Assembly: GCF_015712165.1 (NCBI RefSeq)
Contig: NZ_JADPZX010000003.1
Coordinates: 372,001-436,000 of the forward strand
Origin: Streptomyces spinoverrucosus
GTDB lineage: Bacteria; Actinomycetota; Actinomycetes; Streptomycetales; Streptomycetaceae
DNA: 64,000 nucleotides
Direction of reading: 5' to 3'
Each line of letters begins with the position of its first letter. The first letter of the stretch is position 1. Under the pieces are notes generated by a model. That model did no database searches. It was not told where the DNA came from and saw nothing but the letters and a program-made list of their open reading frames with translations. Shown one piece after another: positions 44,210 through 49,440 of the stretch. A program made the translations under genes and the position numbers.

Positions 44210-44836
44210 GTGCCCATCGTCGTGCAACTGCCCACCGGCAAGGCGTTGACCGTCCGCGCGGCGGCGGACGTGTTCCTCGACTCACTCGGAAACCCGAACG
44301 CGGTCTGCGACTACGTGATTGGCGAGGCTCTGAAACTGCTGTGGGGCAGCGCGGCGGTGAACCCGTGGAACTCCCGCCGGGCGGGGTGCTGTCCTGGCTC
44401 GGTTGATGCCGGGAGCGCGGTTACGAGGGGCCGACGGTCCCGTCCCGGGCGAAGCGGCTGGCGGTAGCGGACTCCGAGCCCCCGGCCCGCTGGTAGATGG
44501 CCGTCGACCGGCTGGTTGCTCGGTGCGAGGTACGCCCGCGGGAGAAGACACTGTGGCGGATGCTGTACGAGCCCGCCGGCCGTGCGGAGGAGATCCTCGG
44601 CGTGAACATCGAGGACCTGGACTTCGCCGGGCGTCGCTGCCTGGTCCAGGCGAAGGGTGCACGGAGCAAGGCTCGCAGTCGGGCTAGGCGCGCGAGGACT
44701 TCGTGCTGGAGACGCCGTACTGGAACGCCGGCACCGCACGGTCCCTGCCTCGGCTGCTGCAGGGCCGCTCCCGCGGGCCGGTGTTCGTCACCCACGGCCG
44801 CCCCGGGGCCGGGCGGCAGGCCCTGATCGCGACGCT
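44210..44836 (+). pseudogene. Decayed tyrosine-recombinase-type integrase
   Basis: The frame begins VPIVVQLPTGKALTVRAAAD, followed by a joined EALKLLWGSAAVNPWNSRRA that seems to lack about 20 residues of the N-terminal core-binding domain. After frameshifts and two stops (near 44403 and 44492) it continues [20 protein letters not shown] and [20 protein letters not shown], the first catalytic block with the arginine of GRAEEIL. The C-terminal catalytic residues are absent because homology stops near 44836. It is the remnant of a mobile element's integrase; no attachment site was recognised. Confidence 0.7.
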
Positions 44837-44837
44837 G

Positions 44838-46064
44838 CTATGAGGCGGCGCCGGCCCACAGGTCGGTGCTGTGGGCCCCGATGAGAGCGCTGACGTGGGT
44901 GAGTACATCATTGACCGGCAGCGGGGCCAGTCGGCGTCCGTCACGCAAGCGCAGTGCGACGTGCTCGTCAGCGGCCTCCTTGGCGCCGATGACGGCTTGG
45001 TAGGGAACCAGGCGGGCCTCTCGGATACGGGCACCCAGGCTGCCGCGTTCCGGTCCCGCGATCTCGGCACGCAGTCCGAGACGGGTGCAGCGTTGGGCGA
45101 GGGCTGCGGCGTTCGGCAGTTCGGTGTCGGAGATCGGGAGAACGACCAGCTGAGTCGGGGCGAGCCAGGCGGGAAAGGCACCGCCGTGCTGTTCGATGAG
45201 ATGGGCGACGGCACGTTCCACGCTGCCGATGATGCTGCGGTGGACCATGACCGGGCGGTGTTTGGCGCCGTCCGCGCCGATGTAGTGCAGGTCGAACTGG
45301 TCGGGCTGGTGGAAGTCGACCTGCACGGTGGACAGGGTGGACTCCCGGCCGGCGCCGCCGGTGACCTGGACATCGATCTTGGGGCCGTAGAACGCGGCCT
45401 CGCCCTCGGCCGCCTCGTAGGGCAGGCCGGAGCGGTCGAGGACGTCGGTCAGCAGGGCGGCGGATCGCTGCCACTTCTCGGGTGCGGCAACGTACTTGCC
45501 ACCGGAACCCGGGAGGGAGAGCCGGTAACGGGTCGGGGTGATGCCGAGGGCCTCGTACGCCTGGCGGATCATCTCCAGCGCCGCCTGCGCTTCCTCGGTG
45601 ACCTGGTCCAGGGTGCAGAAGATGTGCGCGTCGTTGAGTTGGATGGCCCGCACCCGGGTCAGTCCGCCGACCACGCCCGAGAGTTCGGAGCGGTACATGC
45701 CGCCCAGTTCGGCCATCCGCAGGGGCAGTTCGCGGTAGCTGTGGGAGCGGGAGCGGTAGATCACCGCGTGATGGGGGCACAGGCTCGGCCGCAGGACGAC
45801 CTGCTCGCCGCCGAGTTCCATCGGGGGGAACATGTCGTCGCTGTAGTGCGCCCAGTGCCCGGAGATCTCGTACAGCTCCCGCTTGCCGAGTACCGGTGAG
45901 TACACGTGGCGGTACCCCGCTCGCCGCTCGGCGGCACGGATGTACTCCTCCAGGGTGTGCCGTACGGTGGCGCCGTCGGGCAGCCAGTACGGCAGGCCTG
46001 CGCCGATGAGCGGGTCGGTGTCGAACAGGCCCAGTTCACGGCCGAGCTTGCGGTGGTCATGCAT
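44838..46064 (-). CDS. Short threonyl-tRNA synthetase paralogue without TGS and editing domains
   Basis: A 408-residue class II synthetase that attaches Thr to tRNA. It begins at the catalytic core ([20 protein letters not shown]); the TGS and N2 editing domains of a normal enzyme of about 650 residues are absent. Zinc ligands appear retained: Cys in [12 protein letters not shown], His in NDAHIFC and His in RPVMVHRSI. The motif-2 arginine is present in [18 protein letters not shown]. The C-terminal anticodon-binding domain is complete ([20 protein letters not shown]). GAGGAG precedes the ATG at 46064. A Thr-rich leader frame and a terminator lie upstream (separate entries). It may be a backup or inhibitor-resistant copy; lack of editing should allow Ser mischarging. 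Confidence 0.88.
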
Positions 46065-46103
46065 GGCGGTCTCCTCGCGGACATCGGGCGAGTGACCGCA
46101 AGG

Positions 46104-46135
46104 CGAAGCCCCGGGGCACTCGCCCCGGGGCTTCG
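46104..46135 (-). terminator. Attenuator terminator in front of the threonyl-tRNA synthetase gene
   Basis: Perfect 14-base arms, CGAAGCCCCGGGGC and its complement, with a four-base loop. On the minus strand the hairpin lies after the leader peptide stop and about 40 bases before the synthetase ATG, inside the transcript leader. Only a weak CCTTG follows and there is no T tract. Its position makes it a transcription attenuator and not an end-of-gene terminator. Confidence 0.8.
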
Positions 46136-46148
46136 ACTAAGACATCTG

Positions 46149-46199
46149 TCAGCGCGCCGGGACACTCTCCGGCGTCGTCGTCATAGCAGCGCGCTTCAT
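46149..46199 (-). CDS. Predicted threonine leader peptide of the synthetase attenuator
   Basis: A 16-codon frame, MKRAAMTTTPESVPAR, ends in TGA 13 bases before the terminator hairpin. Codons 7-9 are three consecutive ACG Thr codons, which fits a peptide that stalls ribosomes when charged tRNA-Thr is short. TAACGT lies seven bases before the ATG, so the start may coincide with the transcription start (leaderless), as in several streptomycete leader peptides. Inverted repeats within it (AGCGCGC with GCGCGCT; CGCCGG with CCGGCG) offer alternative pairings around the Thr codons, and UCCCGG could pair with the first terminator arm. The call rests on layout only. Confidence 0.65.
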   Translation of the reverse strand: MKRAAMTTTPESVPAR

Positions 46200-46304
46200 G
46201 TCGGTGACGTTAGCAGGACGTAGCGATGTCCACACGGCTATTCCTCATAGGGAACGTAGCTGGACAGCCGTAACGAGAAACGTCGCAACCTATCTTGCTC
46301 TGCA

Positions 46305-46505
46305 CATCGCGCGCCGCTCGACGTACGGCCGCCCGCGAACGTCCCCCGACGGCAGGGCGAGGACATCGCACACGACGAGCAAGGCGGGGTTGCTGCTCCG
46401 CCAGCCGCCGCGCCCGTGCCGGCGACGACGCTGCCCGGGACTGCGCCGCCCCGAAGCTGATCCGTCCGTCCACGACGATCACAGCCTCACCGTCCAGCGC
46501 CACAC
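46305..46505 (-). pseudogene. Fragment of an ATP-dependent DNA ligase
   Basis: Read leftward, GVALDGEAVIVVDGRISFGA followed, one frameshift later, by LLVVCDVLALPSGDVRGRPY and VERRAM matches the central adenylation domain of ATP-dependent ligases (LDGE is the conserved motif III area). The catalytic lysine motif and the C-terminal domain are missing. It is bounded directly at about 46506 by a DsbA-like fragment on the other strand. Confidence 0.6.
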
Positions 46506-46510
46506 CCCAG

Positions 46511-46847
46511 CTGCGGGTGCTGTCCGGCGGCCTGTTCACCGGCTCGCGCGCACTGCCGGTGTCGGCCTACCCGCACATCCCGGGCGCCAACGAGCGCATC
46601 GCCCAGCTGACCGGCGTCACCTTCGGCGACGGCTACCGTGCCGCGCTGGCGGACGGCACGGTCGTAATGGACGCCGCGGATGCCGCCACGGGCCTGGTCG
46701 CCCTGCGCAGCCGGCCGGGCGCGAACGCCCTGGATGCCGCCGCCGCGATGCAGCGTGCCTGGTACGTCGACGGCCGCAGCCTCTCCGACGCCTCGGTCCA
46801 CCGGGACATAGCTGCCGAGCTGGGACTGGACGCCGACGCGCTCACGG
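46511..46847 (+). pseudogene. Fragment of a DsbA-family thioredoxin-fold protein
   Basis: The rightward frame LRVLSGGLFTGSRALPVSAY through ERIAQLTGVTFGDGYRAALA and ALDAAAAMQRAWYVDGRSLS to HRDIAAELGLDADALTV follows the middle of a DsbA-like oxidoreductase/isomerase. The N-terminal 20-25 residues with the Cys-X-X-Cys site and the C-terminus are gone. It abuts the ligase fragment on the left and a transposase fragment on the right. Confidence 0.6.
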
Positions 46848-47755
46848 TTGTCGATCTTGACGCCCTTGTCGGTCACCATCAGCCGTTTGAACGGCAGCAG
46901 CTTGCGGTTTTGGTGGGGAGTCAGCGGCATCGGCACGTGGCCCCTCGGCGGCCACCAGCGTCGCGTACATCCGGTTCGGGCTGATCGTCAGGCCCGGCAG
47001 GGACGGGCGGCGCAGCCCGGCGTGCGGTTTTTGTTGCCGGTCCTGGACGATCCATTCATCGAGCAGGTCCTGCAGCCGATTCAGGCTCCACAGTGGCCCG
47101 TCTGCGCCGTGCTTGCCGCGCCGCTTCAGGTCATGAAGGTGCTCTCGATGATGGCCTTGTCGGTGGCGGTGCGCTCCATGGCCGGGGCGGCCGTTGATGC
47201 CCAGCATCCGGCACACGTCGTCGAAGTGCTCGCTGTTGAAGACCTTGCCGTGGTCTACGACGCCCATCCGCGGGCGGATCACCGGCCGTGCGGACGCGCC
47301 GAACATACGCGGATCACAGGCCACCGGATCGGTATAGGGGCATCTCGGAGTGCTCCGCCGGCGCCGGCGGCGACCAGCCTGGTCGGCCCAGCATCGGAGC
47401 CAGGGCCTGCGCCGGCATCAGCACCGCGTCGAAGGAACGGGTGGCGCGCCCGCCCAGCCGCCGCCCCCGCGGGCCGCGGCCCGGCACCTTCGGCACGATC
47501 ATCGCGCCGAGAAGTCGATCTGCACCTGCTCACCCAGCCGCAGCGCGTTCATCGGCGTGTACGGGGGCACCGCCCCGTTGGCGGCGTCCATCCGCCGCTG
47601 GGTGGGCCACCGCAGCGACTCCACCTTGATGCCCAGCCGGTCCAGCAGCCGGTAGAAGGTGGCCTGGCAGATCATCAAGTCGTCGTACTCCCAGGGACGT
47701 TCCCGCCTCACGGCAGCCTGCAGCCGCTCATACAGCCGGCTGCCGTCCCCGTCGG
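46848..47755 (-). pseudogene. Decayed Mu-type (DDE) transposase
   Basis: Leftward pieces in several frames follow a Mu-type DDE transposase: LYERLQAAVRRERPWEYDDL, LMICQATFYRLLDRLGIKVE, DHGKVFNSEHFDDVCRMLGI, LQDLLDEWIVQDRQQKPHAG, LPGLTISPNRMYATLVAAEG and VPMPLTPHQNRKLLPFKRLM. The aspartate/asparagine block (VVDHGKVFNSEHF) is recognisable. At least three frameshifts and a stop are present and the C-terminus is cut at about 46848, where the DsbA fragment begins. Confidence 0.65.
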
Positions 47756-48205: not shown

Positions 48206-48772
48206 ATGCAACCCCGGACGCACACCCGGGCGCTCGCCCTGGCCGGCGCACTGCTCCTGGCCACCGCACTGCTCGCCGCCGGCTTGACCGGTTGCTCGGC
48301 GCTCTCCCCGTTCAACACCTGCGACGACACGGCGACTCGCGTGGAGGAACTGCGATCCCAGCCGATCCTGCAGTCCGCCCCGGCGGGGGCGATCGTGCCG
48401 AAGGACCTGGCTTCGGTGCGCGCGGGCTGCCTCGACGACAGCGGCGACGCCTGGCTGTACGCCGAACGCATCTACGCCTTCCCCGGCTCCCGGCAGGAGG
48501 TCGTCGACTTCTACCGCACTACAGCCAAGGCGGACAGCTGGCGAGTGCAGTCCGACCCTGTAGACCTGAGCACCCCCGAGACAGTAGCGGGACTGTGCTT
48601 CACCAAAGGCGGGGACGGCAACGCCCTCCTGCTGACCGTGCAGTTCACCACAGCCGGCGAGCTGAAATTTGAGCACGGCTACGAGGCCGGGCCGGAGTTC
48701 GACTCGGGCTCCGGATTCGAGATAGAGGTCGGCTCCGAGACGGACGGGGCGAAGACCGGCTGCTTCGACTGA
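48206..48772 (+). CDS. Lipoprotein of unknown function
   Basis: A 188-residue predicted lipoprotein. The signal peptide (residues 1-28, Ala/Leu-rich) ends in the lipobox LLAAGLTGCSA. The mature part contains ILQSAPAGAIVPKDLASVRA, a YAERIYAFPGSRQEVVDFYR segment typical of small streptomycete lipoproteins, and ends GAKTGCFD. No catalytic motif is visible. GGAG lies five bases before the ATG at 48206. It is the only intact gene among remnants between 46.2 and 50 kb, and its stop lies only a few bases from the truncated transposase that follows. Confidence 0.75.
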   Translation: MQPRTHTRALALAGALLLATALLAAGLTGCSALSPFNTCDDTATRVEELRSQPILQSAPAGAIVPKDLASVRAGCLDDSGDAWLYAERIYAFPGSRQEVVDFYRTTAKADSWRVQSDPVDLSTPETVAGLCFTKGGDGNALLLTVQFTTAGELKFEHGYEAGPEFDSGSGFEIEVGSETDGAKTGCFD

Positions 48773-48775
48773 CAC

Positions 48776-49440
48776 CCACGAACTGGAAGCCCGTGGTGTC
48801 GTCGGAGCGTTTGACGATGTCGAGGTGAGCTGCAGGTTCTCGGCCCGCCCCGTCGACGAGCCGACCCGCATAGCCGCCGTCCGCCCAGACGAGACGGACG
48901 GAGAAGTGCCGCTTACGCAGCTGTTCCAGCAGCGGTACTGCGGCGTCGCGGTCCTGCACACCTGCCGCGGTCACCGCGACGGCCAGGAGCAGGCGGAGGC
49001 AGTCGACCACCAGATGCCGCTTGCGCCCCGAGACCTTCTTCCCGCCGTCCCAGCCGGACGTCTCTGCGGGGATGGTCACTGCCGCCCGCAGGGACTGCGA
49101 CTCTACGATCGCCGCACGGGTCCGGTGAGCGGCCCTCTTGTCCCGGACCGGTCACGCAGCCGGTCGTGCAGCTCCGCAAGCAGACCCCTCACCTGCCGGC
49201 GGCGGGCGAAGGCGTGCATGCGCCGATACGGTGGGCAAGCCCGTGGGCAGGTTGGCCCACTTCACTCCGTTGTCGACGACGTGGCGGACCGTGTCGAGCA
49301 TCACGCGGTGGCAGTAGCTCTCGGGGCGGCCGCCCCGCCCCTCCAGCCAGGCCGGGATCGACAGCGATGCCCTAACGACCTGCCACTGCGTCTCCGTCGT
49401 ATCCGAGCCATAGCACGGGAGACGCTGCGGACCATCCACC
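48776..49440 (-). pseudogene. Decayed IS5/IS4-type transposase, 3' truncated
   Basis: Leftward pieces begin MDGPQRLPCYGSDTTETQWQ and VVDNGVKWANLPTGLP, then change frame to SGWDGGKKVSGRKRHLVVDC, VTAAGVQDRDAAVPLLEQLR and VRLVWADGGYAGRLVDGAGR, and stop matching after IVKRSDDTTGFQF near 48785. The glutamate-bearing C-terminus is missing and two or more frameshifts are present. The truncation point coincides with the end of the lipoprotein gene. Confidence 0.7.

Follow-up and report, generated by a model that had tools for sequence, protein, structure and literature searches.

A widely conserved threonine-codon leader precedes a spare threonyl-tRNA synthetase gene in Streptomyces and may relay tRNA charging to its Shine-Dalgarno sequence

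We found that thrS2, the gene of a short threonyl-tRNA synthetase (ThrRS) in a window of 64,000 nucleotides of Streptomyces spinoverrucosus DNA, is preceded by a Thr-codon leader, and that this leader of a spare ThrRS is real and widely conserved. Comparison of related loci showed a Thr-run leader, candidate helices 1:2, 2:3, 3:4, 5:6 and loop:5 with covariation (Table 1), and a tight association of the leader with the gene. We consider it fairly probable that the leader is a ribosome-mediated attenuator, which would read the charging of Thr-tRNA and set translation of the accessory ThrRS. The spare enzyme is probably made only when Thr-loaded tRNA runs short, and covariation supports a relay that would end at the Shine-Dalgarno sequence (SD).

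Table 1. Coordinates of thrS2 and of the proposed elements of its leader in the window.
Feature	Position	Strand	Remark
thrS2, 408-aa ThrRS	44838..46064	-	catalytic and anticodon-binding domains only (PF00587, PF03129)
Strand 6, including Shine-Dalgarno	46066..46078	-	GAGGAG 46076-46071, precedes ATG 46064
Strand 5, anti-SD GCGGTCACTCGCCC	46086..46099	-	would pair with strand 6 or the hairpin loop
Strand 4, 3' arm of central hairpin	46104..46117	-	no U-tract after it
Hairpin loop GAGT	46118..46121	-	with flanks (46125-46117, GGGCGAGTG), putative anti-anti-SD; covaries with strand 5
Strand 3, 5' arm of central hairpin	46122..46135	-	
Leader ORF MKRAAMTTTPESVPAR	46149..46199	-	ATG 46199 to TGA 46151-46149; 16 codons
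Strand 2, GTCCCGGCGCGCT	46151..46163	-	proposed partner of strand 1 or, with a ribosome on the Thr codons, of arm 3
Strand 1 inner, CGCCGG	46169..46174	-	pairs with CCGGCG at leader 3' end
Thr sensor (putative), ACG ACG ACG	46173..46181	-	leader codons 7-9
Strand 1 outer, AGCGCGC	46189..46195	-	pairs with 46151-46157
-10-like box TAACGT	46207..46212	-	ends 7 nt before leader ATG

The earlier note on this DNA had described a 16-codon minus-strand frame with three adjacent ACG codons, a TAACGT box seven bases before its ATG, and a perfect 14-bp-arm hairpin between this frame and the ribosome-binding site of the ThrRS gene, and all three are present. The hairpin, CGAAGCCCCGGGGC-GAGT-GCCCCGGGGCTTCG, lies at 46135-46104 on the minus strand, 13 nt past the leader stop codon. 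A further strand at 46099-46086, which is able to hide the SD, had been overlooked. The leader of thrS2 is probably a leaderless message, as the earlier note had supposed: among 148 leaders, whose starts were picked with a preference for a -10-like TAnnnT box, the distance from the end of such a hexamer to the start codon is 7 nt in 127, 6 nt in 20 and 4 nt in 1, and a related leader of S. lividans is leaderless by RNA-seq (PMC8079986). An Rfam scan of the window gave no family at gathering score, and at E<=10 the segment 45900-46400 gave 10 weak matches (E 0.27-8.4, all far below gathering), the T-box not among them; we disregarded these and rejected a known RNA family for the leader.

Orthologous leaders, which the earlier note had proposed to compare, kept both the Thr codons and the hairpin. 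Among the best 80 of 309 related loci, found mainly in Streptomyces and also in Microtetraspora, Streptosporangium, Nonomuraea, Frankia, Saccharopolyspora, Nocardia and others, 79 carry a Thr-run leader, as does the window; the exception, L018, has the hairpin and the SD region, and the leader is absent from its 155 upstream bases. Sixty further loci yielded 58 leaders (three Thr in 56, two Thr in 2), the misses being L159, at a contig end, and L171, which encodes a full-length enzyme (open frame 896). A search of the phylum gave 29 loci, ten of them with a leader, all before a short enzyme; most of the other 19 encode long enzymes preceded by coding sequence, and L099 begins at a contig edge. 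The leaders thus extend to relatives just 50-60% identical to the thrS2 product, and L089 (TTTTT), L090 (TTTT), L091, L093 and L102 carry them at 50-56% enzyme identity.

The same association was seen within the genus. Of the 199 Streptomyces genomes sampled, 99 encode a short ThrRS (E<=1e-112), a few as fragments, and 98 of these 99 have the Thr leader. The leader pattern, with at most one mismatch, gave 93 matches in 92 of the 199 genomes and none in a backward-read control; 90 of the 93 sit 83-253 nt before a short ThrRS gene, in agreement with the claim that the controlled gene is a spare ThrRS. The leader is therefore above chance, as 148 leaders precede a short ThrRS and 93 pattern matches stand against none in the control. 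Nine carriers of the enzyme had no pattern match. Eight of them (L087, L178, L179, L200, L202, L203, L204 and L205) carry variant leaders in which Thr codons occur as a pair or a run; the ninth, L201, retains the hairpin and SD region and lacks the leader. The three matches away from a short ThrRS gene are remnants, standing before a decayed thrS2 (G783, locus L187), an internally deleted copy (G855, L188) and no remaining ThrRS match (G949, L189). Since leaders remain before decayed, deleted or missing copies, thrS2 is dispensable and disappears before its leader does. The pattern was found before no other gene in the 199 Streptomyces genomes, and we rejected a regulon beyond thrS2; the genome of the window has a single match even with up to three mismatches.

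The leader family, which excludes the six late loci L200-L205, has 148 members of 15-22 codons. The run has three Thr codons in 144 of them, two in 2, four in 1 and five in 1, written as ACG (436), ACC (6) and ACT (3). These numbers do not amount to an independent test, because the leaders were collected by a search for Thr runs; the independent evidence is given by the loci searched and missed. The run lies 15, 18, 21, 24, 27 or 30 nt from the start and is in frame in all leaders, although the in-frame check (146 of 146 sequences) is only partly independent, because 90 of the 148 sequences were trimmed to a start already chosen.

The earlier note had also pointed to alternative pairings within the leader. 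Indeed, competing helices 1:2, 2:3 and 3:4 exist and covary. In an alignment of 60 of the 80 leaders then collected, where kinship of the sequences inflates the counts, the SD-hiding helix 5:6 was paired in 92.3% of cells, and both sides had changed in 21 cells, compared with 5.7 in shuffles; the values for loop:5 were 97.0%, 11 and 2.0, and those for the leader stem and hairpin 98.6%, 5 and 0.3. We also compared pairing of each strand with its own partner and with a partner from another sequence. For 31 distinct loops, pairing with the own strand 5 gave -14.3 versus -11.4 kcal/mol after swapping (0 of 5000 permutations as low; p 0.0002), and z was -7.0 for the 30 loops that remained when the consensus loop was excluded. 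The same test gave z -8.7 (p 0.0002) for 5:6 in 110 representatives, z -2.8 (p 0.0038) for 2:3 in 29 (p 0.0094 in 15 divergent ones) and z -3.6 (p 0.0006) for 1:2 in 18 (p 0.0010 in 17 divergent ones). L005 and its kin show a three-way change, with loop CAAGTG, anti-SD CACTTGC and SD strand GCAAGGAG.

Shuffling of single sequences gave p<=0.05 for loop pairing in 97 of 146 and for SD hiding in 60 of 146; among 31 mostly divergent sequences the numbers were 15 and 9. Loop pairing was not seen by these shuffles in L091, L156, L166, L167, L170, L172, L175 and L176. A pairing of the leader motif GAGTG with strand 5, judged by eye, was dropped, as L057, L074 and L083 change the motif without a matching change. 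The covariation is that of a putative relay, in which 1:2 would compete against 2:3, 2:3 against 3:4, and the loop with the SD for one anti-SD strand.

To place the ribosome on this relay we folded nascent RNA in which arm 4 is not yet made, using 140 sequences (eight of the 148, with a central stem of <8 bp, were omitted). In minimum-energy folds strand 2 paired with arm 3 by at least 5 bp in 140, 140 and 139 of 140 when the A site was on Thr codon 1, 2 and 3, respectively. Moving the A site to the four codons after the run lowered this to 84, 71, 7 and 0 of 140; the pairing formed in 66-99% with the A site on codons upstream of the run, and in 21 of 140 without a ribosome. The position effect tells more than the pairing itself, because shuffled leader tails also paired, by at least 5 bp in 77-78% and by 8 bp in 60%. 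Nine base pairs were formed in 124 of 140 real sequences versus 48% of shuffled tails; helix 2:3 is only moderately above composition controls.

Equilibrium folding of the full window leader left the SD mostly paired (mean unpaired 0.22-0.29) in each state, namely ribosome-free RNA and RNA with a ribosome whose A site was at any one Thr codon or at the stop, and hairpin 3:4 (-32.7 kcal/mol) was stronger than 2:3 (-16.5 to -20.6 kcal/mol). Since these folds keep the SD closed, the proposed switch would have to rest on the order of synthesis or on a pseudoknot. The lack of a switch at equilibrium would also suit constitutive low expression, the leader being a non-regulatory upstream frame kept with the cassette, as would the missing leaders of L018 and L201. 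We regard this as very improbable, however, as the helices covary and the Thr run is kept, always in frame, in leaders of 15-22 codons while enzyme identity ranges from 50% to 95%.

In the ribosome-mediated attenuator that we favour, ample Thr-tRNA would let the ribosome clear the leader, allowing helices 1:2 and 3:4 to form and strand 5 to mask the SD. Under Thr-tRNA shortage, a ribosome stalled on the ACG run would cover strand 1. Strand 2 could then pair with the part of arm 3 nearest the loop before arm 4 exists, and the freed loop would capture strand 5 before the SD emerges, leaving the SD open and ThrRS2 to be made.

The earlier note had taken the central hairpin for a terminator, and this reading did not survive as the general case. 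At least five T within the 8 nt after the hairpin occur in three of 148 leaders, the other 145 having at most four; the sequence after the window hairpin, CCTTGCGG, has no U-tract, and no terminator was detected when 45900-46400 was scanned. As a control, the leuS leader of this genome (MRAVRLLLSGPR) does have a hairpin followed by ATTTTT. We therefore rejected a terminator as the common form; what is conserved downstream is the SD-hiding helix, which competes with pairing of the hairpin loop. The attenuator layout and the Thr leader over a spare ThrRS stand, whereas termination at the hairpin as their general output is not supported. A clear T-run is missing after the hairpin of a second control, the trpS leader of this genome (VTTRTCTQLWWAA). 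The genome has three leader-controlled synthetase genes, thrS2, leuS and trpS, the last two at loci L191 and L199.

Two relatives, L077 (TTTTTCTTT) and L204 (CTCTTTTTTG; altered leader end VPVC), carry T-runs after the hairpin. Because of these, some relatives probably have termination as an output, and there the U-tract suggests an added or alternative step, L204 being perhaps a switch back to transcription termination. For the same reason we kept as a rival the classical transcription attenuator, in which stalling would lead to antiterminator 2:3, 3:4 would otherwise terminate, and the SD helix would be secondary. We judge it unlikely, though a serious contender. It would fit the mutually exclusive helices 1:2, 2:3 and 3:4 with their codon-run leader, and the trpS control; U-poor termination is moreover possible, since canonical terminators are rarely predicted in Actinobacteria (PMC2965389). 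However, it is at odds with the T counts and the leuS control, and offers no explanation of why strand 5 covaries with the loop as well as with the SD; the S. lividans study, for lack of a U-run, called termination there not clear (PMC8079986). Improbable, in our view, is that untranslated, SD-closed thrS2 mRNA would be terminated by Rho or degraded by RNase, the transcript level tracking translation, an arrangement that would fit a U-less hairpin plus an SD-hiding helix.

A leader of this kind is already known, in one species; the breadth of conservation and the SD relay look new. Attenuation of trpRS1 is reportedly the subject of a paper by Vecchione and Sello. In S. lividans TK24, thrL precedes thrS (SLIV_19410), and its peptide MKRVRPFLETTPGFVPAR is identical to the leader of L178, whose enzyme is a 73% relative of the thrS2 product. 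Like the window leader, thrL is leaderless with one hairpin lacking a U-run; its description, however, concerns a single species and gives two Thr codons and a termination step that is not clear (PMC8079986), whereas here a broad family carries a putative SD relay. The available portion of that paper does not describe an SD helix, loop pairing or conservation for thrL.

The attenuators predicted for Streptomyces trpS (trpS2) and leuS likewise have a cognate-codon leader peptide before a synthetase gene and competing helices (PMC1262725). The leuS terminators, however, have poly-U, unlike the thrS2 hairpin. The attenuator is thus aimed at a synthetase, as the earlier note had claimed, but a target of this type is not new. 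Conserved RNA structures were, by the account of PMC1262725, not seen in front of threonine operons. According to the same source, the translational T-box of actinobacterial ileS also belongs to a synthetase gene and sequesters the SD in a hairpin, but binds tRNA directly and has no leader peptide, the thrS2 leader being without an Rfam match; and the LEU element of leuA also has a codon-run leader, an SD region in alternative structures and a pseudoknot, but its SD partner is the codon run itself, whereas thrS2 has the separate strand 5 downstream of the hairpin. In erm-type translational attenuation stalling in the leader is likewise proposed to open the SD, in response to drug-bound ribosomes (PMC2965389) instead of the uncharged tRNA proposed here. 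The open-licence literature searched, as far as its text was available, describes no SD switch for thrS in Actinobacteria.

The thrS2 product scored 439 bits against TIGR00418 (cut-off 384) over profile positions 171-562 of 565, and its Pfam domains do not include an editing domain. The genome encodes a second, longer ThrRS-like frame, 41% identical to it; no Thr leader was seen before this housekeeping thrS. Position 489 (E. coli numbering), which we take to be linked to borrelidin, is Gln in all 79 readable of 81 ThrRS2 proteins, and Leu in the housekeeping enzyme of this genome and in four of nine readable distant relatives. The E. coli Gly463 position is Gly (YGPK) in 80 of 80 readable of the 81. 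Resistance to obafluorin has been mapped to Gly463 and was not conferred by L489M (PMC11252418). Inhibitor tolerance of the thrS2 product is therefore only a guess, and we rejected it as an ObaO-type obafluorin-resistant ThrRS, ObaO having Ser at the Gly463 position (PMC9437257, PMC11252418). Anabaena ThrRS T2 (PMC4787780) and TrpRS1/ObaO (PMC9437257, PMC11252418) are likewise second, editing-poor or resistant synthetases made on demand, T2 being controlled by Zur where thrS2 instead has a Thr leader.

If this reading is true, actinobacteria use the sensing of charged tRNA by a leader peptide to control translation initiation, and the attenuator hairpins of the phylum that lack a U-tract may be loop-presenting switches, not terminators. 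The ThrRS of 99 of 199 Streptomyces genomes would gain a testable role as an emergency enzyme, normally off because its editing domain is missing. More tentatively, we propose a compact relay that would use the loop of a terminator-like hairpin as the anti-anti-SD and pass Thr stalling via four helices to the ribosome-binding site; it would travel with the editing-less ThrRS as a self-contained cassette, able to move horizontally, that provides a spare ThrRS, possibly tolerant of inhibitors, upon failure of the main enzyme.

The thrS2 product is 95% identical to a Microtetraspora protein, which suggests that leader and gene were transferred as one unit. The largest cluster of shared neighbours covers 7 of the best 80 of 309 loci, so that thrS2 has no stable partner gene. 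The cassette adjoins insertion-element debris. A DDE transposase fragment (PF01609) lies at 48645-49079 on the minus strand, and a stretch at 46842-47324 (minus), which by eye resembled a transposase remnant, gave no Pfam match. On the plus strand, an odd tRNA-like call by ARAGORN (44804-44881), with a four-base anticodon, overlaps the 3' end of thrS2 and is probably spurious.
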